Shown here: piece after piece, positions 48,007 to 62,606 of the stretch | Position numbering within the stretch: the stretch's first letter is position 1 | How the letters are laid out: every line of letters starts with the position of its first letter | Origin: Sulfuritalea sp. | GTDB taxonomy: Bacteria > Pseudomonadota > Gammaproteobacteria > Burkholderiales > Rhodocyclaceae | DNA: 62,606 bases | Assembly: GCA_030651305.1 (NCBI GenBank) | Contig: JAUSCI010000074.1 | Location: 1-62,606 of the forward strand | Reading direction: 5' to 3' | Position numbers and translations under genes: made by a program | Notes under the pieces: generated by a model | Seen by the model: the letters and a program-made list of their open reading frames with translations, nothing else | What the model was told of the DNA's origin: nothing | Database searches by the model: none

Positions 48007-48473
48007 TCAAACGCCCTTGAGGTCTATTTCGTCGCGGTGGCCGAAGCCTTTGCTGTTGTCGATGAAATGGAAATGTTCGGGCACCAGCCTGAACCAGCGT
48101 ACCTTGGCCAACGCCTTGACGATGGCCGGCGGTACGTTTCCCAGCGGGCTGGCGATGGGGAATTTCTCGCCATACAGCGTTTGGGCGCGGCGCTCTTCGT
48201 CGCCCTGAAGTTCGATGACGCGGCCTTCGAGCTGGATGCCCTTGATCTGGGCCCAGTCGCTGTAGTCTTCCTGGATCGTTGCCGCGCAGCGGGCATCCAG
48301 TGCCAGATTGTGGCAATGGCGCGTGTTCGGCGACGAGAGAAAGATCAGCGAGCAGCCGTCGGCGGCGTAGAACACGGCTGCCGCCCATGGCCCTTGCGCG
48401 CCGTGCGTGGCCAGCGTCATGACATGGTGCGCGGCGAGATAGTCCGCCACCGGCCGCGGCAATGTCACCGGCA

Positions 48474-48474
<1 letters not shown>
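48007..48474 (-). CDS. pyridoxamine 5'-phosphate oxidase-family protein
   Basis: 155 residues, split beta-barrel flavin-binding fold: MTLATHGAQGPWAAAVFYAADGCSLIFLSS, then the strand QEDYSDWAQIKGIQLEGRVIEL. Such small proteins bind FMN, F420 or haem. The ATG overlaps the regulator stop by 1 nt (TGATG), so it is coupled to the sigma-54 activator gene and may sense or modify a ligand. Not PdxH itself: the PLP-binding motifs are missing. Confidence 0.78.
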
Positions 48475-50216
<1,742 letters not shown>

Positions 50217-50629: not shown

Positions 50630-52465
50630 ATGAAGTTTCCAGTTCCGCACGACGTAAAGGCCAAGACGATTCCGGGTACCGAAGGCTGGGAGAGGATGTA
50701 CCCGTACCAGTATCAGTTCGTCACCGACGACCCGGTGCGCAACCAGTACGAAAAAGAGACGTTCTGGTTCTACGACGGATTGCACTATCCGGAGCCGCTG
50801 TATCCCTTCGACACCATCTGGGATGAGGCCTGGTTCCTCGCCCTCTCGCAATTCAACAACCGCATTTTCCAGGTGCCGCCGGTGCGCGGCGTCGACCACC
50901 GCATCATCAACGGTTATGTCTATATCTCGCCGGTGCCGGTCAAGGACGGCGCGGAAATCGGCAGCCGCGTGCCGAACTTCATGGAGCGCGCCGGCTTCTA
51001 TTACAAGAACTGGGACATGCTGGAGGCCAAGTGGAAGCTCAAGATGGAGGCCACCATCAAGGAACTCGAGGACCTGCAGATTTCACCCCTGCCGGATCTC
51101 GAGGACATCTCGGTGGTGATGGACGCCCTCGGTGAATCCAAGGGCTACCACCTGATCAAGAACTACGACGACCTGATCAATCTCGGCATCAAGTGCTGGC
51201 AATATCACTTCGAGTTCCTCAATCTCGGCTATGCGGCCTATGTCTTCTTCATGGACTTCTGCCAGAAGCTGTTCCCCAGCATCCCGCTGCAGCGCATCAC
51301 GCAGATGATCTCGGGTATCGACGTCATCATGTACCGCCCCGATGACGAGCTCAAGGAACTGGCGAAGAGCGCGATAGCGCTGGGCGTCGACGGGGCCGTC
51401 GCGGCACACCGCGACTGGGCCACCGTCAAGGCCAATGTCGGCAAGCTGCCCAAGGGCGCAGAATGGCTGGCGGCCTTCGAGAAGGCACGTTATCCGTGGT
51501 TCAACATCTCGGACGGCACCGGCTGGTTCCACACCGACCGCAGCTGGAACGACAACCTCGACGTGCCGCTCTCCGGCATCCAGACCTACATCGGCCGGCT
51601 CAAGATCGGCGCCACCATCGATCGTCCGACGGAGCAGGTGCGCGCCGAACGCGACCGCATCACCGCCGAGTACCGCGCCCTGATCACCAACGAAGCCGAC
51701 CTGAAGCAGTTCGACGAGTTGCTCGGTTGCGCCAAGACCGTGTTCCCCTATGTCGAGAACCACTTGTTCTACGTCGAGCACTGGTTCCACTCGGTGTTCT
51801 GGAACAAGATCCGCGAAGTGGCGGCGATCATGAAGGATCACGGCATGATCAAGGACATCGAGGACATCTGGTATCTGCGCCGCGACGAGATCAAGTCAGC
51901 CTTGTGGGACGTCGTCACCGCCTGGGCCACCGGCGTCACGCCGCGTGGCACCACCACCTGGCCGCCGGAAATCGAATGGCGCAAGGGCGTCATGGACAAG
52001 TTCCGCACCTGGAGCGTGCCGCCGGCCATCGGCATCGCGCCGGAAGTCATCCAGGAGCCCTTCACCATAGTGCTCTGGGGCGTCACCAACAAGTCGCTGT
52101 CCGACTGGTCCGCGGTACAGGAAATCACCGATCCCGACAGCATCACCGAGCTCAAGGGCTTTGCCGGCAGTCCCGGCGTGGTCGAGGGCAAGGCGCGCGT
52201 CTGTCGCACGGCAATGGACATCCGCGACCTGCAGGACGGCGAAATCCTCGTCGCGCCGACCACCTCGCCGTCATGGGCGCCGGCCTTCGCCAAGATCAAG
52301 GCCTGCGTCACCGATGTCGGCGGAGTCATGAGTCATGCCGCCATCGTCTGCCGCGAGTACGGACTGCCCGCAATCGTCGGCACGGGACATGGCACCAAGA
52401 TCATCAAGACCGGAATGACGATCAGGGTCGACGGTTCCACGGGTCTGGTTTCAATCACCCGGTAG
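50630..52465 (+). CDS. ppsA: phenylphosphate synthase subunit A (PEP synthase central/C-terminal-like)
   Basis: 611 residues. The C-terminal part has the swivelling phosphohistidine domain of PEP synthase/PPDK: the motif GGVMSHAAIVCREYG puts the catalytic His at residue 569, the same number reported for T. aromatica phenylphosphate synthase protein 1. The long N-terminal part (YPYQYQFVTDDPVRNQYEKE ... DTGWFHTDRSWN region) binds the phenolic substrate. The His is phosphorylated from ATP with help of subunit B and passes the phosphate to the phenol hydroxyl. AGAAGGAGA precedes the ATG. It is the first gene of the catabolic operon. Confidence 0.93.
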   Translation: MKFPVPHDVKAKTIPGTEGWERMYPYQYQFVTDDPVRNQYEKETFWFYDGLHYPEPLYPFDTIWDEAWFLALSQFNNRIFQVPPVRGVDHRIINGYVYISPVPVKDGAEIGSRVPNFMERAGFYYKNWDMLEAKWKLKMEATIKELEDLQISPLPDLEDISVVMDALGESKGYHLIKNYDDLINLGIKCWQYHFEFLNLGYAAYVFFMDFCQKLFPSIPLQRITQMISGIDVIMYRPDDELKELAKSAIALGVDGAVAAHRDWATVKANVGKLPKGAEWLAAFEKARYPWFNISDGTGWFHTDRSWNDNLDVPLSGIQTYIGRLKIGATIDRPTEQVRAERDRITAEYRALITNEADLKQFDELLGCAKTVFPYVENHLFYVEHWFHSVFWNKIREVAAIMKDHGMIKDIEDIWYLRRDEIKSALWDVVTAWATGVTPRGTTTWPPEIEWRKGVMDKFRTWSVPPAIGIAPEVIQEPFTIVLWGVTNKSLSDWSAVQEITDPDSITELKGFAGSPGVVEGKARVCRTAMDIRDLQDGEILVAPTTSPSWAPAFAKIKACVTDVGGVMSHAAIVCREYGLPAIVGTGHGTKIIKTGMTIRVDGSTGLVSITR

Positions 52466-52486
52466 TGATGCGGCAGGGATTCGACA

Positions 52487-53614
52487 ATGGGAAACGTTGT
52501 GGCAATCGGGAAGATTCGCACGGAGGCCTGGATGGATAGCGCAATGCCGAAAGTCTGCTGGTTCGAGGAGTGCAGCAAGGACTCCGTCGCCCTGGTGGGG
52601 GGCAAGTGCGCCTCTCTCGGCGAACTCATCAACGCGGGAGTGCGGGTGCCGCCGGGGTTCGCCCTGACGACGCACGGCTACGCGCAGTTCATGCGCGAAG
52701 CCGGGATCCAGCCCGAAGTGACCGCCCTGCTCAAGGGGCTGGATCACGAGGATATGGACAAGCTCGAAGATGCTTCTCGCATTATCCGCGAGATGATCGA
52801 ATCACGCCCGATCTGCATCGAGCTTGAAGACCTGATTGGCGAGTCCTACCGCAAGTTGTCGAATCGCAGTGGTATTCCGGCGGTCCCGGTCGCGGTGCGT
52901 TCCAGCGCCACGGCCGAGGACCTGCCCGGCGCCAGTTTTGCGGGTCAGCAGGATACCTACCTGTGGATTCGCGGCATCGACGAGGTGATCCACCATGTGC
53001 GGCGCTGCATCTCAAGCCTTTATACCGGCCGCGCCATCGCCTATCGCATGAAGATGGGTTTTCCCCACGAGCAGGTGGCGATCAGCGTCGGCATCCAGAA
53101 GATGGCCAACTCGTTTTCCGCCGGCGTGATGTTCACCATCCATCCCACCAATGGCGACCGCTCGGTGATCGTCATCGACTCGAATTACGGCTTTGGCGAG
53201 TCGGTGGTTTCAGGCGAGGTCACGCCGGACCATTTCGTGGTCAATAAGGTAGCGCTCGACATCATGGAGCGCACCATCTCCCGCAAGGAAATTTGCTACA
53301 CCGTCGATCTGAAGGCACAGAAATCCGTCGCCACCGAGATTCCCTTCGAACGCCAGACCGTGCAGTCGATCATCGACGATGAAGTCACCGAACTGGCCTG
53401 GATGGGCAAGCAGATCGAAAAGCACTACGGCCGTCCGATGGACATCGAATGGGCGATCGACAAGGACCTTCCCGCCGGCGGCAACGTCTTCATCCTGCAA
53501 GCGCGGCCGGAGACGATCTGGAGCAACAAGAAGCAGGCGCCTGTGTCGGCAGGCAGCGCTTCCGCCATGGACTACATCCTTTCCAGCCTGCTGACCGGCA
53601 AGAAAGTCGGCTAG
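52487..53614 (+). CDS. ppsB: phenylphosphate synthase subunit B (ATP-binding)
   Basis: 375 residues of the N-terminal PEP-synthase ATP-grasp type. VALVGGKCASLGELINAGVRVPPGFAL is the classical start of this domain, VRSSATAEDLPGASFAGQQDTYL carries the nucleotide-binding Arg and Glu, and VFILQARPETIWS closes it. It provides the beta-phosphate from ATP to His569 of PpsA, together splitting the roles of one PEP synthase into two chains. GCAGGGA lies 7 nt before the ATG at 52487. 21 bp after ppsA. Confidence 0.93.
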   Translation: MGNVVAIGKIRTEAWMDSAMPKVCWFEECSKDSVALVGGKCASLGELINAGVRVPPGFALTTHGYAQFMREAGIQPEVTALLKGLDHEDMDKLEDASRIIREMIESRPICIELEDLIGESYRKLSNRSGIPAVPVAVRSSATAEDLPGASFAGQQDTYLWIRGIDEVIHHVRRCISSLYTGRAIAYRMKMGFPHEQVAISVGIQKMANSFSAGVMFTIHPTNGDRSVIVIDSNYGFGESVVSGEVTPDHFVVNKVALDIMERTISRKEICYTVDLKAQKSVATEIPFERQTVQSIIDDEVTELAWMGKQIEKHYGRPMDIEWAIDKDLPAGGNVFILQARPETIWSNKKQAPVSAGSASAMDYILSSLLTGKKVG

Positions 53615-53672
53615 CGGCGTATCACGCAAGCATTCGAGTCACCCACCACCCCTGTACTACTACGGAGCGAAA

Positions 53673-55250
53673 ATGAAAGCACCCGCAAAAGTAAAGCCCA
53701 TCGACGATATCCGCAGCTACATCGCCGCCCTGGAGGCCAACGGCGAGTTGCATCGCGTCAAGGCCGAAGTGGATTGGAAGTTCGAGCTTTGCCACGTCTC
53801 GAAGGTCAATGAAGAACAGAAAGGGCCGGCGCTGCTCTACGAAAACGTCAAGGGTTACGACATTCCGGTATTCACCAGCGCCTTCACCACCTCGCGGCGG
53901 CTGGCCATCGCGCTGGAGCAGGACCCGTCGCTGTCGATGAGCCAGCTCTCGAAGAAATGGATGGAACTGACCACCAAGACCATGGTCAAGCCGAAGTTCG
54001 TCAAGAATCCGCAAGTGAAGGAAAACATCATCGAGGGCGACGCCGTCGATATCAATATGTTCCCTTCCCCCTGGTTTTACCCAGACGACGGCGGGCGCTT
54101 CTTCGTCACCTCCGGCTTTCTGGTGACCGAAGACCCGGATACCGGCTGGACCAACCTGGGCACCTACCGCGCCCAGGTGCTGGGCAAGAACATCCTTGGC
54201 TCGCAGATCATCAAGGGCAAGCACGGCGACATGCACATGAAGAAGTATCAGGAACGCGGCGAACTGATGCCCGCGGCCTACGTGGTGGGTACCGACCCGG
54301 TGCTGTTCCTCGCCGGCTCGACCCTGGTCAGCGCGCAGGTGGATGAATACGAAGTGGCCGGCTCGCTGCGCGGCAAGCCGGTCGAGGTGTTCAAGTCGGA
54401 CCTGACCGGGCTGACCTTGCCGGCCAATGCCGAGATCATCGCCGAAGGCTGGATCGACCCGAACGAGTTGATGGACGAAGGCCCCTTCGGCGAATACACC
54501 GGCTACTACTCCGGCAACAAGGGCAAGGACTATCCGAAGCCGGTGCTGCGCATCGCACGCATCCTGCATCGCAACAAGCCGGTGATGTGGTCAACGACCG
54601 TGGGCAAGCCGATCAACGACATCCATATGATCCAGTCCCTGAACCGCACCGCGACGCTCTGGCACGACCTGGAAACCATGAAGGTGCCGGGCATCCAGAG
54701 CGTGTATATCCCGCCCGAAGCCTGCGGCCGCTTCTGGGTCGTGGTCTCGGTCAAACAGATGTATCCGGGACACTCGAATCACGTCGGCAATGCCGTAATC
54801 TCCACTACCACCGGCCACTATGGCGTCAAGGGCGTGATCGTCGTCGATCACGACATCGAGGCCGACGACTGGGACCGCGTCTGGTGGGCGCTGGCAACGC
54901 GCTTCGACCCCAAGCGTTCGGCCCAGATCATCGACCGCGGCCGCTCCACGCCGCTGGATCCGGGGCTACCGATCGAGGCGCGCGACATCACCAGCCGCAT
55001 CATCCTCGATGCCTGCACGCCCTACGAGTGGGCCAACAAGCCCAACGAGATTTTCATGGACCGCACGGTGCTGCAGAAGGTTTCCGACCGCTGGAATGAT
55101 TACGGCTTCAAGGGGGCCAGCCCGGTGGCCGGCATGATCAACCGGCTGACGCGACCGGAAGTGAAAAAGGCCAAGGCAGAAGCGCCCAAGGCCAAGCCGG
55201 AGGTGAAGAAAGCCAAACCTCCTGTGAAGAAGGCCAAGAGCGGCAAGTGA
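53673..55250 (+). CDS. UbiD-family (de)carboxylase with Lys/Ala-rich tail, phenylphosphate carboxylase-like
   Basis: 525 residues. UbiD hallmarks are visible: the acid pair in the DEGPFGEYTG motif (E269 and E274) for prenyl-FMN catalysis, and the segment HMIQSLNRTATLWHDLE. It should carboxylate a phosphorylated phenol, or decarboxylate an aryl acid, using the cofactor made by UbiX. In T. aromatica two UbiD subunits plus two small ones form the enzyme; only one UbiD is seen here. The last 35 residues are an unusual Lys-Ala-Pro repeat (VKKAKAEAPKAKPEVKKAK) not part of the UbiD fold. It lies 58 bp after ppsB with a weak GGAGCG site. Confidence 0.88.
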   Translation: MKAPAKVKPIDDIRSYIAALEANGELHRVKAEVDWKFELCHVSKVNEEQKGPALLYENVKGYDIPVFTSAFTTSRRLAIALEQDPSLSMSQLSKKWMELTTKTMVKPKFVKNPQVKENIIEGDAVDINMFPSPWFYPDDGGRFFVTSGFLVTEDPDTGWTNLGTYRAQVLGKNILGSQIIKGKHGDMHMKKYQERGELMPAAYVVGTDPVLFLAGSTLVSAQVDEYEVAGSLRGKPVEVFKSDLTGLTLPANAEIIAEGWIDPNELMDEGPFGEYTGYYSGNKGKDYPKPVLRIARILHRNKPVMWSTTVGKPINDIHMIQSLNRTATLWHDLETMKVPGIQSVYIPPEACGRFWVVVSVKQMYPGHSNHVGNAVISTTTGHYGVKGVIVVDHDIEADDWDRVWWALATRFDPKRSAQIIDRGRSTPLDPGLPIEARDITSRIILDACTPYEWANKPNEIFMDRTVLQKVSDRWNDYGFKGASPVAGMINRLTRPEVKKAKAEAPKAKPEVKKAKPPVKKAKSGK

Positions 55251-55255
55251 ATCGA

Positions 55256-55283
55256 CGCCGGCAGCCAGACTTGCCTGCCGGCG
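55256..55283 (+). promoter_or_regulatory. intercistronic hairpin between UbiD and Tm-1-like genes
   Basis: CGCCGGCAG / CTGCCGGCG, a perfect 9-bp stem with a 10-nt loop. It begins 6 bp after the UbiD stop and ends 19 nt before the ATG at 55303. No U-tract follows, so it is more likely an mRNA stability or translation-control element than a terminator. Confidence 0.6.
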
Positions 55284-55302
55284 CTGCAACCCGACAGCAA
55301 AC

Positions 55303-56559
55303 ATGAAATAAAAAAAGGGCATCGTCATCGTCTGCAACCTGGACACGCGGGGCGAGGACATTGTCTTCGTCAGGCAGCTCATCGCCGACCGTGGCCACCA
55401 GCCGATCCTGCTCGATTTCAGCATGGAGGAGCCGCCGCCCTTCCCCGGCGACATCCGTACCGAGGACGTCGCAGCGCGCGGAGGGCTGTCCATCGAAGTG
55501 GTGCGCGAGAAGTACCGCTCCGACCGCGACACCGCCACCAACAACCAGATCAGGGGCGCCGCGGCGATCGTCCAGGATCTGCTGGCGCAGGGAAAGGTGT
55601 ACGGCATCATCGGCATCGGCGGCGGTACCGCGACGCTGGTCGCCACGTCGATCATGAAGCAGCTGCCCTTCGGCATGCCCAAGCTGATGGCCTCGCCAAT
55701 GGCGGCGCATCCGGCCTACATCGACAAGTACGTCGGCACCCGCGACATCACCATGCATCACACAGTGCTCGACATCGTCAAGATGAATCCGCTGCTCAAG
55801 GCGCAGATCATCAATGCGGTCGGCGCCATCTGCGGCATGGTCGAAATGACCCAGGGCACCGACATCGTCTTCGACAAGCCCTGTGTCGCCATCTCTTCCT
55901 TCGGTTTCGGCGAGATGGCGGTGCAGACGGCGATCGGCATGCTGGAGGAAGCCGGTTTCACGCCCATCGTCTGCCACGCCCAGGGCAAGGGCGACAAGGC
56001 GATGGAGGAAATGATCCGCGACGGCGCCTTTCACGGCGTGCTCGACATCTGCATCGGCGGCATCATGGAGCACCTGTTCAAGGGCAACCGCGACCCCGGA
56101 CCGGATCGCCTGATGGCGGCCGTGGAGACCGGCATTCCGATGGTGCTGGCGCCCTGCGGACTCGACATCCTGTCCTATGGCGGTCGCCCGGACATGCTGG
56201 AAAAGACCAGGGATCGCGTGCAGTACGTGCAGGACGCATTGCGTGTCCAGGTGCGCACCACAGCCTACGAGCTGCGCCAGGCCGCCGATGTAATCGCCGG
56301 GAGACTCAATCAGGCCAAGGGTCCGTGGACCTTCCTGATTCCGCAGAAAGGCTGGTCGTCCCTCGACAAGGAGGGACGCCCGATCTACGACCCGGTAGCC
56401 GATGCCGCGTTTGTTGCCCGCCTGAAGGACAAGCTGGACGATCCCGCCCGCGTCAAGGAAATTCCGCTGCACCTTTACACCCAGGAATTCGCCCGTGTCG
56501 CGGTGGACGAGTTCGTGCGCTTGCATGAAGAAGCAAAGACCAAGGAGAAGCTGCAATGA
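55303..56559 (+). CDS. Tm-1-like / UPF0261 ATP-binding protein with UAA at codon 3
   Basis: The frame ATG AAA TAA AAA AAG continues without further stop for over 410 codons. The translation after the stop (KKGIVIVCNLDTRGEDIVF) is the normal N-terminal nucleotide-binding strand of the UPF0261/Tm-1 family, so the UAA at 55309-55311 lies inside the conserved gene. The next ATG is 55423, which would delete this strand. The Tm-1-like domain and the C-terminal UPF0261 domain (IGGGTATLVATSIMKQLPFGMPKL ... LAPCGLDILSYGG) are intact. A role in the phosphorylation-carboxylation step or ATP sensing is guessed from position only. The 4-nt overlap with the CBS gene shows a live operon. Real nonsense mutation, recoding or read error are all possible. 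Confidence 0.75.
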
Positions 56560-57263
56560 TGGTACGCAACTGGATGCAGGCCAACCCGACGATCATCCCG
56601 AGCGACACACTGGTGTCGGAGGCCAAACGCATCATCAGCGAAAACAATCTGCACGCCCTGCCCGTGGTCGACAACGGCAAGCTGCGCGGACTGATCACCC
56701 GGGCCAACCTGCTGCGCATGGGCAGTTTTGTCCTGCGCACGCAAAATGCCGACGAGTTCGATTTTTTCGTCACCCGGCTCAAGGTGCGCGACATCATGGT
56801 GCGCAACCCGGCGACGATCCAGGCCGACGAGACCATGGAGCATTGCCTGCTCAAGGGACAGGAACTCGGTGTGGCGCAGCTTCCGGTCATCGAAAAGGAT
56901 CAGGTGGTGGGCGTCATTTCCGCCAACGAAATATTCCAGCTGGCGGCACATTGCCTGGGCGCCTGGGAGAAGCGCAGCGGCGTTACGCTGGCGCCCATCA
57001 AGTTGGGCCCCGGCGTACTTGGCCGGATAGTCGACGTCGTCGAAGCCGCGGGGGCCGTACTGCAGGCGGTGTATCCGATAGGACGCCATGACGACCCGAC
57101 GGAATGGGGCTATCCGGAGAAGAAGGTGATCCTCCGCTTTCATGCCGGCGAAGGACAGGACGTTGCGGCCGCGCTTGAAGCCGCGGGATTCCCGGTCCTC
57201 GAAACGACCGAGATGCGGCACGCCGAGGCGCTCAAGCCGGAGCCGAAAGACGGCGGACACTGA
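56556..57263 (+). CDS. ppsC: CBS-pair/ACT protein, phenylphosphate synthase subunit C-like
   Basis: 235 residues. Two CBS motifs occupy about 1-60 (MQANPTIIPSDTLVSEAKRI) and 75-135 (VRDIMVRNPATIQADETMEH, GVISANEIFQL). The rest is ACT-like (GRIVDVVEAAGAVLQAVYPI). In T. aromatica a 24-kDa protein with two CBS domains stimulates phenylphosphate synthase; this one has the same size and setting. It probably senses adenylates. ATGATG overlap with the Tm-1-like gene. Confidence 0.82.
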   Translation: MMVRNWMQANPTIIPSDTLVSEAKRIISENNLHALPVVDNGKLRGLITRANLLRMGSFVLRTQNADEFDFFVTRLKVRDIMVRNPATIQADETMEHCLLKGQELGVAQLPVIEKDQVVGVISANEIFQLAAHCLGAWEKRSGVTLAPIKLGPGVLGRIVDVVEAAGAVLQAVYPIGRHDDPTEWGYPEKKVILRFHAGEGQDVAAALEAAGFPVLETTEMRHAEALKPEPKDGGH

Positions 57264-57303
57264 CAAGCATCGACAGCCGTGAAACAATGCGCCTGCCATT
57301 CGC

Positions 57304-57328
57304 AAGAGTCGGCGCTGACGACACGGCG
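57304..57328 (+). repeat. dispersed 25-bp repeat copy
   Basis: Core GTCGGCGCTG with right end ACGACACGGCG. It lies in the 128-bp spacer between the CBS gene and ubiX, in the middle of the catabolic operon. Confidence 0.7.
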
Positions 57329-57391
57329 ATACTTCGACGGCCAGCCACGGTAGGAACCGTGCGGACCTGAATCTGACGCAAGGACAAGACA

Positions 57392-57982
57392 ATGAAACTG
57401 GTAGTAGGCATCTCGGGGGCCAGCGGCGCCATCTACGGACTGAGGATTCTGGAGGTGCTGAAGCAGCTAGGGGTGGAAACGCATCTGGTGATGTCGGATT
57501 CCGCCAAGCGCACGATCGTCTACGAAACTGACTACACGATCGACGATGTCAAGAAGCTGGCCACCCATGTGCACGACAACAACGACGTCGGCGCCTGTAT
57601 TTCTTCCGGTTCGTTCCGACATGACGGCATGGTCATCGCGCCGTGTTCGATCAAGACGCTTTCGGCCCTGGCGCACTCGTTCAACACCAACCTGCTGATC
57701 CGCTCCGCCGATGTCACGCTCAAGGAACGGCGCAAGCTGGTGCTGATGATTCGCGAGACCCCCCTGCATCTCGGTCACCTGCGGCTGATGACCCAGGTGA
57801 CGGAAATTGGCGCCGTGCTGGTGCCGCCGCTGCCGGCCTTCTACCATCAGCCGAAGACCCTCGACGACATCATCAACCAGTCGGTCAACAAGGCGCTCGA
57901 CCAGTTCAACCTGGGCGTCGAACTCAACCTGTTCAAGCGCTGGACCGGCAATGAAGAACGCGAACGCGCCAAGTCGCCGTAG
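57392..57982 (+). CDS. ubiX: flavin prenyltransferase UbiX
   Basis: 196 residues. GISGASGAIYGLRILEVL is the UbiX N-terminal FMN-binding loop, followed by the conserved SSGSFRHDGMVIAPCSIKTLSALAH segment and RETPLHLGHLRLM. It makes prenylated FMN, the cofactor of UbiD enzymes. As it is inside this operon it probably serves the UbiD here rather than ubiquinone synthesis alone. A 128-bp spacer with a repeat copy separates it from ppsC. Confidence 0.95.
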   Translation: MKLVVGISGASGAIYGLRILEVLKQLGVETHLVMSDSAKRTIVYETDYTIDDVKKLATHVHDNNDVGACISSGSFRHDGMVIAPCSIKTLSALAHSFNTNLLIRSADVTLKERRKLVLMIRETPLHLGHLRLMTQVTEIGAVLVPPLPAFYHQPKTLDDIINQSVNKALDQFNLGVELNLFKRWTGNEERERAKSP

Positions 57983-58000
57983 CGTTGCCACGGTACTGCA

Positions 58001-58525
58001 ATGACAGCGCACCATTGCAGCCAGTGCGGCTCGCGCATGGTCCTCGCCACCATCGCCGAGCGGCCGCGCGAACAGTGCCCGGCCTGCGGCTTCATCGCCT
58101 GGCGCAATCCGGCGCCGGTGGCGATGGCCGTGATCGAGCATGAGCGACAACTGGTGCTGATCCGCCGCAGCGAGGCGCCGCTCGCCGGCTATTGGGCGCC
58201 GCCGGCCGGCTATGTCGAAACCGGCGAGTCGGTACCCGAGGCGGCGATAAGAGAGGCCCGCGAGGAATGCGGACTGGAAATTGTTCTCGATGACCTGGCC
58301 GGCGTCTACTCCCAGGCCGATGTCGATGTGCTGATCATCGCCTACAGCGCCCACTCGACCGGCGGCAGGCTGATCGCCGGTGACGACGCCAGCGAGGCCG
58401 GGCTTTTCGCCTCCGGGCGGATGCCGGCACAGCCAGTCCCGGCGACCGGAACGGCAACCGATCGCTGGCTGCACGGCGTGATCCTCGACGTGACTGCACG
58501 CTGGCAGCAGGCCTCGTGTCGCTGA
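58001..58525 (+). CDS. Nudix hydrolase with N-terminal zinc ribbon
   Basis: 174 residues. Zinc ribbon Cys6, Cys9, Cys26, Cys29 (CSQCG ... CPACG), then the full Nudix box at 70-92 with E76, R84, E85, E88 and E89 (GESVPEAAIREAREECG). NudC-like in layout, but shorter. A Nudix (MutT-type) gene is also reported in the T. aromatica phenol cluster, which argues for a conserved though unexplained role. 18 bp after ubiX. Confidence 0.87.
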   Translation: MTAHHCSQCGSRMVLATIAERPREQCPACGFIAWRNPAPVAMAVIEHERQLVLIRRSEAPLAGYWAPPAGYVETGESVPEAAIREAREECGLEIVLDDLAGVYSQADVDVLIIAYSAHSTGGRLIAGDDASEAGLFASGRMPAQPVPATGTATDRWLHGVILDVTARWQQASCR

Positions 58526-58544
58526 CGCAATCGGAGAACAGACG

Positions 58545-59045
58545 TTGACCGGCAATATCACCCCCACCCTGGCGGAAAAGCTGATCGGCTACCTGCGCCC
58601 CGGCGCGCCGGGCCTGATGCTCACCACGGGCGCGGACGGCTATGCCAGTTCAGCCTATACCTGGCTCATGGCGATGGATGCCAGGCGGTTGCGCTTCGGT
58701 GTCGACGCCGGCAGTACGGCGATGAACAATCTCCAGCGCAGCGGTCTGGTAGCAATCCAGATCATCGGTCCGGGCGAGCTGTGTTTCCTGGTCAAAGGCA
58801 AGGCGCGGCAGCTCAAGGAGCGTATCGAGGCCGCCGCTCCCGCTTCGATCATGCTCTGGGAGATGGAGGTCGTCGGCGCAAAGGACCAGTCCTGGCCGGG
58901 AGTCAGGATGGCGGCACTGGCGTACGAATGGCCAGCGGAAAAACGCGACGCGATGCTCAGGATGGAACAGGCGGTATACGCGGAAATGCGTGCCGCCGTA
59001 AGCGAATCACGACATGAACCCACTCATATTTCCACTTCCCGATAA
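58545..59045 (+). CDS. pyridoxamine 5'-phosphate oxidase-like protein
   Basis: 166 residues with the split beta-barrel pattern: PGLMLTTGADGYASSAYTWLMAMDARRLRFGV, then IQIIGPGELCFLVKGKA. The TTG start at 58545 is preceded by GGAGAA and fits the operon spacing (19 bp after the Nudix gene). It is a second, different PPOX-like protein in this cluster; the first is coupled to the regulator. FMN binding likely, reaction unknown. Confidence 0.72.
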   Translation: MTGNITPTLAEKLIGYLRPGAPGLMLTTGADGYASSAYTWLMAMDARRLRFGVDAGSTAMNNLQRSGLVAIQIIGPGELCFLVKGKARQLKERIEAAAPASIMLWEMEVVGAKDQSWPGVRMAALAYEWPAEKRDAMLRMEQAVYAEMRAAVSESRHEPTHISTSR

Positions 59046-59058
59046 CGGCGAAAAGCAC

Positions 59059-60357
59059 ATGGCGTATTTTGACGAAGCGACCGAAACACTTCCGCGCGAG
59101 CAACTGGCGGCTTTGCAGTTGAAGAAGCTGCAAGCGATGCTGACCGAACTGTGGGGCAAGAACCGGTTCTATACCGAAAAATGGAAGGCCGCCAGTGTGC
59201 AGCCGTCCGACATCGAATCGCTGGAGGACCTGGCGCGCCTGCCGCTGACCAAAAAAGGCGAACTGATGGACGACCAGGCCGCTCGCGGCCCGTTCGGCAC
59301 CAATCTGACCTATCCCATCGAAGCTTATGTACGCATGCATCAGACTTCGGGCACCACCGGCGTGCCGTTGAAGGTAATGGATACCAACGAATCATGGGAC
59401 TGGTGGGGGCGCTGCTGGGGCCATGTACTCGCCGGCGCCGGCGTCACGGCCACCGACCGCCTGTTCATGGCCTTTGCCTTCGGCCCCTTCATCGGGTTCT
59501 GGGCAGCCGTCGAAGGGGCGCGCAAGATCGGCGCCTTGATGATTCCCGGCGGCGGACGCGATTCGCAGCAACGCCTGGAACTGATGCGGGACGCAGGGGC
59601 GACCGTCCTGTGCTGCACGCCGACCTATGCGCTGCGTCTGGCGGAAGTCGCGCACGAAATCGGTTTCGACCTCGGCACCATACCGATGAGAGCCACCGTT
59701 CACGCCGGCGAACCGGGCGCCAACATACCCGCCACCAAGCGCCGCATCGAAGATTCCTGGGCCGCGAAATGCTTCGATCACGCCGGCGCTTCAGAAGTCG
59801 GTGCCCATTCCTTCGAATGCCACATGCAACCCGGCGGCACGCATCTGATCGAGAGCGAATACATCGCCGAAGTGATCAATTCGCTGACGGGTGAAGCCGT
59901 TGCGCCGGGCGAGCGCGGCGAACTGGTGATCACCAATCTCGGGCGCTGGGGCTTCCCGGTGATCCGCTATCGCACCGGCGACCTGGTGCGGGTGAATCTC
60001 GACCGCTGCGACTGCGGTCGCACCTCTTTGCGTTTCGAGGGCGGCATCCTGGGACGAGCCGACGACATGGTGACGGTGCGCGGCGTCAACGTCTTTCCCG
60101 CCGGAGTGGAAAACATCATCCGCAAATTCACCGAGGTGGACGAGTTCCGCATCACCGTGAACAAGGTCAAGCAGATGGATGAAATGGACATCGAGGTGGA
60201 ATTGTGCGAAGGCGCCGATCCCGAAGTGGTACACGAAATCGCCATGAAACTCGATTCGATGCTCGCCTTCCGGCCGCGGGTGCATCACGTCGCGCATAAC
60301 GCGCTGCCGCGCTTTGAAATGAAAGCCAAGCGCTTCCACGTGAAACTGGATGAATGA
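59059..60357 (+). CDS. PaaK-type aryl-CoA ligase
   Basis: 432 residues, the usual length of phenylacetate-CoA ligases. The P-loop is HQTSGTTGVPLKV, the adenylate-binding segments are HAGEPGANIP and GASEVGAHSFE, then RYRTGDLVRV and the C-terminal GRADDMVTVRGVNVFPAGVE hinge. It activates an aromatic acid with ATP and CoA. In the cluster it would take the product of carboxylation. Phenylacetate is less likely as there is no paa ring-hydroxylating set. The ATG at 59059 is used; an ATG at 59014 is the alternative. Confidence 0.9.
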   Translation: MAYFDEATETLPREQLAALQLKKLQAMLTELWGKNRFYTEKWKAASVQPSDIESLEDLARLPLTKKGELMDDQAARGPFGTNLTYPIEAYVRMHQTSGTTGVPLKVMDTNESWDWWGRCWGHVLAGAGVTATDRLFMAFAFGPFIGFWAAVEGARKIGALMIPGGGRDSQQRLELMRDAGATVLCCTPTYALRLAEVAHEIGFDLGTIPMRATVHAGEPGANIPATKRRIEDSWAAKCFDHAGASEVGAHSFECHMQPGGTHLIESEYIAEVINSLTGEAVAPGERGELVITNLGRWGFPVIRYRTGDLVRVNLDRCDCGRTSLRFEGGILGRADDMVTVRGVNVFPAGVENIIRKFTEVDEFRITVNKVKQMDEMDIEVELCEGADPEVVHEIAMKLDSMLAFRPRVHHVAHNALPRFEMKAKRFHVKLDE

Positions 60358-61079
60358 GGAGCCAGACGCCGCCTGATTCGGTGATCTACGCCATCGGCGA
60401 CATTCACGGTCGCCTTGATCTGCTTGTCGAAATGCATGATCGCATCGCAACCGACGCGCGGCAGCGATCGACGCAAAGCAAACTGGTGGTTTATCTCGGC
60501 GACTACGTCAGTCGCGGCGAGGATTCGCGCCGGGTGGTGGACCGGGTACTGGAGTGGCTGCCGGAGGGCTTCGAACGGATAACGCTCAAGGGTAATCACG
60601 AAGACCTGCTGCTGCGCTTTCTCGACGGCGATCTGGACGCGGGACGACACTGGTTCGACTACGACGGACTCGATACCCTGGCCCACTACGGCGTCGCCGT
60701 TCCCGACCGGCAAACCCGCGATGATGCGAGCGTGGCTGTTTTGCGTGACCGCTTTGCGGCCGCCCTGCCGCAATCGCATCTGGAGTTTTTCAGGTCGCTG
60801 CCGGCGAGCCATCGTGCCGGCGACTACTATTTTGTACATGGCGGTGTACGTCCCGGGGTGCCGCTGCCAGAGCAAAGCGAGCACGACTGCATGTGGATCC
60901 GCAAATCCTTTCTGGATTCGGACGTTGATCACGGGGCGGTCGTGGTGCATGGCCACAGCATTTCCAGCGCTCCGGTGGTTCGCCACAACCGCATCGGCAT
61001 CGATACCGGAGCCTACCGCAGCGGTGTGCTGACCTGCCTCGTGCTCGACGCCACAACGCGGAGTTTCCTGCAGACCTGA
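60354..61079 (+). CDS. calcineurin-like serine/threonine phosphoesterase
   Basis: 241 residues. Metallophosphoesterase motifs: GDIHGRLDLL (residues 15-24), GDYVSRGEDS, LKGNHEDLL, VHGGVRPG and VHGHS. It resembles the PrpA/lambda phosphatase type. ATGA overlap with the ligase gene, so it is part of the operon. It might hydrolyse phenylphosphate or a phosphoprotein; the substrate is not known. Confidence 0.87.
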   Translation: MRSQTPPDSVIYAIGDIHGRLDLLVEMHDRIATDARQRSTQSKLVVYLGDYVSRGEDSRRVVDRVLEWLPEGFERITLKGNHEDLLLRFLDGDLDAGRHWFDYDGLDTLAHYGVAVPDRQTRDDASVAVLRDRFAAALPQSHLEFFRSLPASHRAGDYYFVHGGVRPGVPLPEQSEHDCMWIRKSFLDSDVDHGAVVVHGHSISSAPVVRHNRIGIDTGAYRSGVLTCLVLDATTRSFLQT

Positions 61080-61222: not shown

Positions 61223-61762
61223 GTGCAGGAACCAGGTACTGCCCCTGTCCATCAGGCGGGAATCGCTGAGCGCGGCCCCTACGGACGCATGCTGCTGGCG
61301 ACCGCCAAATGGCTCGCCTTCGCCGGCGGGGTGATATTCACCGGCCTGGTGATCATGTCCATCGTCTCGATTGTCGGGCGCAAGTTGTTCAGCGCACCCG
61401 TTCCGGGCGATGTCGAAGTGTTGCAGATGTTTGCCGCCTTCGCCTCGGCGGCCTTTTTCGCTTACTGCCATTTGATGCGCGGCGAAGTCAAGGTGGACTT
61501 CTTCACGGCCCATCTGGCCGAACCCAAGCGCTGCTTTCTGGATGCCGTGGGCTCGCTGCTGGTGGGCCTGGTCGGGGCACTCCTGGCGTGGCGCACCTGG
61601 GTAGGCGCGATGAGCCTCAGGGAAGGCGGCGAATCGTCCGCCATCCTCGAAATACCGGTGTGGATTGCACAGGCCCTGATGGTACCCAGCTTCATCCTGC
61701 TGGCGCTGGCGGGTTTCTACATGTGCGTGCAGACCTGGAAACAGCGCGGTACGAGATCATGA
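61223..61762 (+). CDS. TRAP transporter small permease (DctQ type)
   Basis: 179 residues, four membrane helices (LAFAGGVIFTGLVIMSIVSI near 31-50, then EVLQMFAAFASAAFFAYC). GTG start with GAGGAGAG upstream. The VSIVGRKLF and GDVEVLQ motifs are DctQ-typical. ATGA overlap with the large permease. The 143-bp spacer before it contains TATAAT (61111-61116) and TATACT elements and a TGGTCG/CGACCA palindrome, so it may have its own promoter. Confidence 0.88.
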   Translation: MQEPGTAPVHQAGIAERGPYGRMLLATAKWLAFAGGVIFTGLVIMSIVSIVGRKLFSAPVPGDVEVLQMFAAFASAAFFAYCHLMRGEVKVDFFTAHLAEPKRCFLDAVGSLLVGLVGALLAWRTWVGAMSLREGGESSAILEIPVWIAQALMVPSFILLALAGFYMCVQTWKQRGTRS

Positions 61763-62606
61763 GCGGAACCCAGATCGGCTTCATCATCTTCGGCTGCCTG
61801 TTGACGCTGCTGGTGCTGCGCGTGCCGATAGGCATCGCCATGTTCATTTGCGGTGGCGGCGGCTATTTGTATCTCACCGGCGGTGAAACCGGGCCGCTGC
61901 TCAACTCGCTGAAGAATCTTGCCTATGCCCGGCTGTCCAATTACGACCTGGTGGTGATTCCGTTGTTCCTGCTGATGGGGCAGTTCGCCACGCACGGCGG
62001 CCTGAGCCGATCCTTGTTCAGGTTTGTCAGCGCCTTCATCGGCCACCGCAAGGGCGGCATTGCGATGGCGGCAATCGGCGCCTGCGCAGGCTTCGGCGCG
62101 ATCTGCGGTTCGTCCCTGGCAACCGCTGCAACCATGGGCCAGGTGGCCCTGCCCGAGCTGAAGCGCTACGGCTATTCCGGATCGCTGGCGACCGGTGCAC
62201 TGGCCGCCGGCGGCACGCTCGGCATCATGATCCCGCCCTCGGTGCCGCTGGTGATCTATGCCATCCTGACCCAGGAGTCGATCGGCAAGCTGTTCATGGC
62301 GGCCGTATTGCCGGGCATCATCGCGATGCTCGGCTATATGCTGGTGGTGCAGATCGTAGTCGCCTTCAACCCCGGCGCCGGACCTGCAGGGCCGCGCGTA
62401 CCGTGGCCGGAACGCATCCGCTGTCTGCTCCAGGTGCTGCCGGTGCTGCTGGTCTTCGTCGTGGTCATCGTCGGCATCTACGGCGGCTGGGCCAACCCGA
62501 CCGAGGCGGCATCGATCGGCGCCGCCTCCTGCGGCATTCTCGCCTTCATGTCCGGCAACATGCGCTGGGAGCAGGTGGAAAAGACGCTGCTCGGAACTGC
62601 CATGGC
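61759..62606 (+). CDS. TRAP transporter large permease (DctM type), partial
   Basis: Begins with ATG at 61759 (overlapping the DctQ stop) and runs off the right edge after about 282 residues. The DctM pattern is clear: FIIFGCLLTLLVLRVPIGIA, LVVIPLFLLMGQFATHGGLS, GAICGSSLATAATMGQVALPE and GGTLGIMIPPSVPLVIYAI. It forms the ion-coupled channel for an organic anion, with a periplasmic binding protein presumably beyond the edge. The catabolic setting suggests an aromatic acid. Confidence 0.93.
   Translation, partial: MSGTQIGFIIFGCLLTLLVLRVPIGIAMFICGGGGYLYLTGGETGPLLNSLKNLAYARLSNYDLVVIPLFLLMGQFATHGGLSRSLFRFVSAFIGHRKGGIAMAAIGACAGFGAICGSSLATAATMGQVALPELKRYGYSGSLATGALAAGGTLGIMIPPSVPLVIYAILTQESIGKLFMAAVLPGIIAMLGYMLVVQIVVAFNPGAGPAGPRVPWPERIRCLLQVLPVLLVFVVVIVGIYGGWANPTEAASIGAASCGILAFMSGNMRWEQVEKTLLGTAM

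Follow-up and report, generated by a model that had tools for sequence, protein, structure and literature searches.

The closest described relatives of the locus presented here are the phenylphosphate synthase-carboxylase (pps-ppc) operons of anaerobic phenol degraders. For the PpcABCD system, known from Thauera aromatica and Aromatoleum, full activity in T. aromatica is reported to require all four subunits (PMC7500099). A comparison of pps-ppc operons from nitrate, sulfate and iron reducers calls the third UbiD PpcX and the UbiX PpcY and, in the part available, gives PpsAB and PpcB-PpcY as common to all (PMC5946492); differing operon composition as such is therefore already published. In Desulfatiglans anilini, the accessible part of PMC6114531 describes a phenol-induced cluster with a single ppc-beta gene and no ppc-gamma, and an AMP ligase of unknown function carries the locus tag adjoining ppc-beta; the same paper cites Geobacter metallireducens as having only a ppc-beta homologue, and the Geobacter genes are placed in Gmet_2100-2102 (PMC1924859). 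Here we analyse a 62,606-base stretch of Sulfuritalea sp. DNA (the window, one entire contig of a 3.9 Mb assembly with 82 contigs and 97.6% completeness), whose pps operon is probably an anaerobic phenol operon with a compact, one-UbiD phenylphosphate carboxylase.

With PpcABCD operons the window shares the synthase genes and the type of regulator, its UbiD is sister to PpcB, and it has the companions of those loci, where UbiX and a CBS protein always occur and Nudix, PNPOx-like and PaaK genes often do. It differs from them in lacking PpcA, PpcC, PpcD, the third UbiD and a CTP-dependent riboflavin kinase gene, in keeping the Mn-binding His and Glu of its UbiD, and in an added UPF0261 gene. The PpcB-only clusters of G. 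metallireducens and D. anilini resemble the window in having a single ppcB-like gene beside ppsA and ppsB, with no ppcA or ppcC in the cluster. The D. anilini AMP ligase recalls those of genome G120 and other compact loci, whereas the window has UPF0261 and PaaK genes and no such ligase; in D. anilini, moreover, a further phenol-induced UbiD is encoded outside the cluster. Two enzymes that depend on prenylated flavin mononucleotide (prFMN), 5o3m (protocatechuate decarboxylase) and 7ae4 (phenolic acid decarboxylase), share the UbiD fold with the window protein (phmmer 117 and 188 bits, respectively). AroY and VdcCD are enzymes of this sort; the substrates of these decarboxylases are phenolic acids in free form, and they are not known to be accompanied by a phenylphosphate synthase. 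The gene set read from the letters of the window in the original prediction (ppsA, ppsB, one UbiD, Tm-1-like, UbiX, Nudix, PPOX-like and PaaK, in this order) was borne out, with all genes on the forward strand (Table 1) and the CBS gene lying between the Tm-1-like gene and ubiX.

Two carboxylase modules, unmixed in the loci examined, stand beside one and the same synthase. We found 433 relatives of PpsA and fetched the best 80 loci (L numbers; genomes bear G numbers, contigs C numbers), so that these are close kin; they were chosen by PpsA similarity and are related to each other, and the counts are not independent events. The set comprises 35 compact, 33 canonical and 12 unassigned loci (11 with a contig end within 6 kb, plus L113). 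At least 6 kb downstream of ppsA is available in 57 of the 80, namely 27 canonical loci, 29 compact loci and L113. The canonical module runs CBS, ppcB, ppcD, ppcA, ppcC, third ubiD (ubiD3), ubiX and CTP-dependent riboflavin kinase-like gene. In the compact module a single UbiD is followed by UPF0261 (25/29) or by an AMP-ligase (4/29: L068, L069, L077 and L088), then by CBS and mostly UbiX (27/29). PpcA, PpcD, PpcC and the third UbiD occur in all 27 canonical and in none of the 29 compact loci, UPF0261 in none of the canonical ones, and a CBS homologue in every locus of both types. The Nudix, PNPOx-like, PaaK, CBS and UbiX genes of the window, rightly predicted as present, also accompany canonical Thauera-type phenol operons; the PaaK-type ligase has 76% identity with its counterpart in L016, a canonical locus.

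Locus L016 served as reference for the labels, with PpcB (831 bits), PpcD (288) and PpcA (968) over cut-off and PpcC over the Pfam cut-off (PF09662) and under that of NCBIfam (122 versus 136 bits); PpcC, at 89 amino acids, falls under the open reading frame (ORF) length limit of our locus annotation and was located by tblastn. The riboflavin kinase-like gene (L016:13299-13784, PF01982 tested on this copy) was seen in 26/27 canonical and 0/29 compact loci. L113 has ppsA, ppsB, CBS and UPF0261 genes, with no recognised UbiD in the 10 kb downstream. G120 bears a second PpsA-like gene (L015:8457-10340, 59% identical to that of the window); the 20 kb retrieved around it showed no homologue of ppsB.

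The separation holds at the scale of genomes. In 49 genomes of the 80 loci (for Oah, see below, L097 replaced L036), PpcA was over cut-off in 14/15 canonical versus 1/34 compact genomes. The canonical genome without it is G403 (L039), whose contig ends after ppcB. The compact exception, G369 (L036), carries both modules; it may be a mixed bin, or a real double carrier. The whole genome of the window has only two UbiD genes over the Pfam cut-off, that of the window and a ubiquinone UbiD on contig C17 (NF008175, 895 bits, cut-off 788). The window UbiD passes the PpcB model TIGR02724 (563 bits, cut-off 469; canonical PpcBs score 831-854) and is also the best genome-wide match to the PpcA model, far below cut-off (TIGR02723, 201 bits, cut-off 565). 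No credible PpcC was found in the whole genome (best E 0.33 with the PpcC model), nor any PpcD over cut-off: the two matches, of haloacid dehalogenase (HAD) type, reach 119 and 94 bits for a cut-off of 282, and one of them is KdsC-like (TIGR01670 over cut-off). The viral contigs searched by tblastn held no relative of the window UbiD. The idea of a variant system with a simpler carboxylase, already put forward in the original prediction, is supported by these results: no ppcB, ppcC or ppcD turned up elsewhere in the genome, and the UbiD does not group with PpcA. It forms part of a separate clade beside PpcB, and its NCBIfam scores place it nearer PpcB than PpcA.

We built two quick UbiD trees, without bootstrap, the first with 85 of 130 rows and the second, covering two phyla, with 67 rows and no third UbiDs. 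In the second tree, the compact UbiDs form a clade (27 rows, 11 of them from the second phylum; Shimodaira-Hasegawa-like approximate likelihood ratio 93) that is sister to canonical PpcB (26 rows, 99). The window UbiD is 51-55% identical to canonical PpcB. It keeps N161, R166, H184, E225, E269 and E274, which, matched by motif, we take to be the equivalents of N168, R173, H191, E233, E277 and E282 of Fdc1; this numbering is supported by the alignment of H184 with a histidine of both 7pda and 6h6v. The roles of the Fdc1 residues in binding prFMN and Mn are given in PMC4947166. All six residues are intact in 35/35 compact UbiDs; the single deviating row of the alignment is a second UbiD of L098, outside the compact clade. 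In canonical PpcB, the Mn-binding His is replaced by Arg in 34/34 sequences and the Mn-binding Glu by Asp in 33 and Gln in one; in canonical PpcA the His is Leu in 32/32 and the Glu is kept; in the third UbiD the Asn, His and Glu are all changed in 27/27, by aligned columns. As a control on the columns, the ubiquinone UbiD has Gly at the His column and its own His within two columns. When a shift of two columns either way is allowed, no His appears in the 34 PpcB, 32 PpcA or 27 third UbiDs; with five columns it appears in 14/27 third UbiDs and, in the second phylum, in 2/9 PpcAs, where a Mn ligand may have shifted. With these six residues and a UbiX gene at 57392-57982 (UbiX is the prFMN-making enzyme), the window has the makings of a prFMN-type UbiD, and since its prFMN/Mn site is intact, the compact UbiD could work alone as a normal prFMN enzyme. 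In L016 (8171-13302) and the other canonical loci, neither PpcB nor PpcA keeps an Fdc1-type Mn-His, and all three Mn ligands are gone from the aligned columns of the third UbiD. A structure model of the window UbiD was set aside: its mean predicted local distance difference test (pLDDT) was 68.7, and one row of its alignment, L060, had a wrong N-terminal extension.

The same division recurs in a second phylum, that of the host record of L097, a metagenome-assembled genome (MAG) named Syntrophaceae. Searching 297 genomes of this phylum with the window UbiD gave matches at E 1e-60 in 100 of them, many to distant UbiDs; 30 loci were returned, 29 proteins read and 20 neighbourhoods fetched, several of them cut by contig ends. 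Among the 29 proteins, 15 keep the Mn-binding His (H-intact) and have all six residues, and 14 are PpcB-type, with the His absent in every case (Arg, Lys or Thr) and the Glu absent in 10/14. Relatives of the UPF0261 protein (35-39% identity) lie in 11/11 H-intact versus 0/9 PpcB-type neighbourhoods, and PpcA, PpcD and the third UbiD in 0/11 versus 9/9. Four further H-intact UbiDs of this phylum branch outside both clades, including that of the G700 neighbourhood (L171). The contig of L097 itself, with its compact pps genes, falls among betaproteobacteria in the PpsA phylogeny, so that it was probably assigned to the wrong bin.

Comparison of the window with its relatives shows a mosaic operon, in which a compact cassette sits inside an otherwise canonical Sulfuritalea-type operon. 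Median identities to 12 canonical Sulfuritalea-type loci (fewer for some genes) are 89% for the regulator, 90% for PpsA, 84% for PpsB, 55% for UbiD, 65% for CBS and 88% for UbiX; to up to 33 other compact loci they are 76%, 81%, 73%, 88%, 70% and 56%, respectively. The genes closer to the compact set are thus UbiD and UPF0261 alone, joined weakly by CBS, whose position is also of compact type. The UbiD-UPF0261-CBS cassette occupies the place of CBS-ppcB-D-A-C-ubiD3 in the canonical relatives, and we infer that it replaced the canonical set, rather than the reverse. Mapping the module state onto a PpsA tree (83 rows, 76 with a label) requires 8 changes (five unassigned loci, L036, L038, L040, L063 and L097, were counted as compact from partial UbiDs, and seven rows were left uncounted). 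That the modules are exchangeable beside one synthase and one phenol regulator is the best argument for their doing the same job.

We propose the following route. PpsA, PpsB and the CBS protein would turn phenol into phenylphosphate, as is known for their homologues; both the ATP-binding subunit PpsB and the CBS subunit are encoded in the operon (PF01326, PF00571), and the phosphorylatable His569 of PpsA is invariant in an alignment of five PpsA proteins. With prFMN supplied by UbiX, the compact UbiD would carboxylate phenylphosphate to 4-hydroxybenzoate without PpcA, PpcC or PpcD, and a CoA ligase, here of PaaK type, would activate the product for the benzoyl-CoA pathway. Oah is encoded in the window genome (597 bits, cut-off 464); the same contig also carries genes for BoxB (904 bits), BoxC (958), a benzoate-CoA ligase (828) and a regulator of anaerobic benzoate metabolism (NF006015, 398). 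Phenol is the likely substrate, because in Ramlibacter lithotrophicus the compact operon lies among genes for 4-hydroxybenzoyl-CoA reductase and benzoyl-CoA reductase: besides the compact operon, the regulator and a PaaK-like ligase, a single 40 kb stretch of strain RBP-1 holds bcrB (780 bits), bcrC (647), had (579), hcrA (1153 bits, cut-off 995) and hcrB, the last at 404.7 bits for a cut-off of 404.55 (404.3 in the genome-wide scan, where it is therefore uncounted), and oah lies about 12 kb from the UbiD. In G396 and G386, HcrB and the compact operon share a contig, at a distance of 12-18 kb. Oah was over cut-off in 30/33 compact and 13/15 canonical genomes, HcrB in 17/34 and 10/15. In the window genome (G000), the aerobic (BoxB, BoxC) and anaerobic (Oah) benzoyl-CoA routes lie close together (L031:12894-16033; G000:C29:95514-96605), and PobA, of the aerobic 4-hydroxybenzoate route, was not found over cut-off. 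At G000:C70:38601-42358 (L021:8601-12358), genes for a xanthine-dehydrogenase/HcrA-like molybdenum enzyme (HcrA model 589 bits, far under the cut-off of 995) stand beside a methylmalonyl-CoA mutase-type gene.

The added UPF0261 protein has a predicted fold (pLDDT 82.9) whose best Foldseek match is PDB 9mpy (E 5.8e-32, template modelling score 0.55, 29% identity), followed by Tm-1; fold and domains (PF06792, PF23189) both place it in the UPF0261 family. The title of 9mpy names Saro_1862 of Novosphingobium aromaticivorans with bound acetovanillone, a phenol. Acetovanillone breakdown in this species begins with a one-component kinase, MarK (PMC13101465), and we infer that Saro_1862 is MarK. MarK-type and pps pathways are alike in that the phenol is phosphorylated before carboxylation; the pathways related to MarK use a three-component carboxylase (PMC13101465). 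The UPF0261 protein is a usual, non-universal partner of the compact carboxylase, and by analogy with its solved relatives it would most likely bind ATP along with the phenolic substrate or the phosphate of that substrate. A bolder version looks doubtful to us: the protein would be a MarK-like single-component aromatic kinase or a phosphate-handling subunit, and with the catalytically complete UbiD it would make up another class of phenylphosphate carboxylase, one in which phosphoryl transfer is coupled to carboxylation with no need of PpcA, PpcC or the PpcD phosphatase and which would have spread as a swappable cassette among phenol operons of at least two phyla. In the literature searched, which mostly left out subscription papers, we found no publication linking UPF0261 to phenol carboxylation, nor any description of the two exclusive modules or of the difference in metal site.

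Several observations weigh against a compact carboxylase for phenol in the window. In its UPF0261 gene the third codon, counted from the apparent ATG at 55303, is an in-frame TAA (55303-55311), the next in-frame start being at 55423; sense codons occupy this place in L037 and L042, its nearest relatives, and the stop may stem from an error in the assembly, or the gene may have an unusual start or be broken. Among 37 genomes searched, the compact genomes G376, G377, G378, G383 and G390 (four of AMP-ligase type plus G376) have no UPF0261 match at E 1e-20, and G120 has only a 31% paralogue; because of those five genomes UPF0261 is not strictly required, and we rejected it as an obligatory subunit. 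There is no recognisable HcrB in the window genome (best 65 bits, cut-off 405), so that no enzyme is assigned to the step after 4-hydroxybenzoyl-CoA in this organism, and HcrB is not over cut-off either in G370-G373, which are the remaining four of the tested compact genomes of Sulfuritalea type with a single module. As a mark of the compact type the lack of HcrB was rejected, since 5/15 canonical genomes and G014 are likewise without HcrB over cut-off. It would suit the substrate suggested in the original prediction, another phenolic (cresol, catechol or naphthol) carboxylated by the single UbiD, as would the carboxylation of catechols by AroY, a UbiD-family enzyme (PMC5656893). We regard such a pathway as quite improbable: regulator, PpsA, PpsB and UbiX are 83-96% identical to the canonical-operon copies of close relatives, the regulator is closest to phenol sensors (the role of PheR is described in PMC10715001), hcr genes are found close to the compact operon in some genomes, the R. 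lithotrophicus operon lies among hcrAB, had and bcr genes, and the similar D. anilini cluster is phenol-induced (PMC6114531).

D. anilini also provides the main grounds for seeing in the compact UbiD one half of a two-UbiD carboxylase. In vitro, its Ppc-beta and Ppc-beta2, both PpcB-like, were active on phenylphosphoamidate only together, FMN sufficed and phenylphosphate was not converted, according to the accessible part of PMC7500099, and growth on phenol also raises the abundance of a PpcA-like UbiD whose gene lies outside the cluster (PMC6114531); the four-subunit requirement of T. aromatica points the same way. Yet those D. anilini proteins had been refolded from inclusion bodies and tested with FMN (PMC7500099), the only other UbiD of the window genome is the ubiquinone one, and PpcA is not over cut-off in 33/34 compact genomes, which makes a second UbiD partner unlikely here. 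The intact prFMN/Mn site resembles that of ordinary UbiD decarboxylases, and the related proteins of solved structure bear the names of decarboxylases or carboxy-lyases; the UbiD might accordingly act on free phenol or as a 4-hydroxybenzoate decarboxylase, with phosphorylation serving another step. This seems very improbable given the second phylum, which was searched by UbiD and where ppsA and ppsB homologues are both clear in 7/11 H-intact neighbourhoods (matches are weaker in L160, and three remaining contigs lack one or both); the betaproteobacterial set, having been selected by PpsA, is no independent test of this association. Finally, the contig end near the operon and the early stop in the UPF0261 gene might suggest a decayed canonical operon or an assembly artefact, with ppcA, ppcC and ppcD lost or unassembled. 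We rejected decay, and find this whole explanation scarcely credible, because the UbiD is no canonical PpcB and has its own clade and because the compact order recurs in many independent assemblies; moreover, whole genomes were searched for PpcA. A compact phenylphosphate carboxylase acting on phenol thus remains the reading we prefer.

Table 1. Genes of the pps operon and its surroundings in the window
Feature	Position	Strand	Basis
Sigma-54-dependent phenol-sensing activator, PheR/MopR/CapR-like, V4R domain	48474..50216	-	NF041906 MobR 628 bits (below cut-off 999); phmmer CapR 6iy8 545 bits
ppsA, phenylphosphate synthase phosphotransfer subunit (ATG at 50630, His569)	50630..52465	+	PF00391; NF006152 1269 bits, cut-off 723
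ppsB, ATP-binding subunit	52487..53614	+	PF01326 PPDK_N 388 bits
Compact-type PpcB-like UbiD, predicted carboxylase	53673..55250	+	TIGR02724 563 bits; six residues intact; trees
UPF0261/Tm-1-like protein	55303..56559 (longest intact ORF from 55423)	+	PF06792 and PF23189 (stop read through); Foldseek 9mpy
CBS-domain protein, PpsC-like	56556..57263	+	PF00571, two stretches
UbiX flavin prenyltransferase	57392..57982	+	NF004685 268 bits, cut-off 188
Nudix protein, accessory	58001..58525	+	PF00293
PNPOx-like protein, accessory	58545..59045	+	PF01243 24.3 bits, below cut-off 28.1
PaaK-type AMP/CoA ligase (start 59014 or 59059)	59014..60357	+	PF14535, PF00501
Calcineurin-like phosphoesterase	60354..61079	+	PF00149; homologue in 12/29 compact and 6/27 canonical loci
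TRAP transporter DctQ and first part of DctM, truncated at contig end; putative operon member	61223..62606	+	PF04290; TIGR00786 206 bits (fragment)

The regulator adjoins ppsA on the opposite strand in most of the 80 loci, and the window PpsA is 96-98% identical to copies from Rhodocyclales/Sulfuritalea-type MAGs (L035-L039). A YhbP/PNPOx-like gene at 48010-48474 adjoins the regulator and is kept in many loci of both module types. The contig stops 2.2 kb past the PaaK gene, so that the operon may extend further downstream. A sigma-54 promoter pattern, with two mismatches allowed, matched 12 times in the window for 14.6 expected, two of the matches lying upstream of ppsA, and was given no weight.

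The papers on Geobacter and Desulfatiglans left the question of how a PpcB-only cluster carboxylates phenylphosphate. Our comparison suggests that such clusters need not be reduced versions of the four-subunit enzyme and can form a class apart, whose metal site is intact and which has partners of its own; the sequences are consistent with a compact class of phenylphosphate carboxylase to which the published PpcB-only clusters may belong. In R. lithotrophicus there is an isolate with the entire island, for which the proteins to purify are named here. The reverse question arises for the canonical enzyme: with the Mn-His gone from every first-phylum PpcB and PpcA examined, where do metal and cofactor sit? 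TIGR02724, for its part, covers both carboxylase classes, and the compact type would escape any survey that makes ppcA or ppcC a condition.

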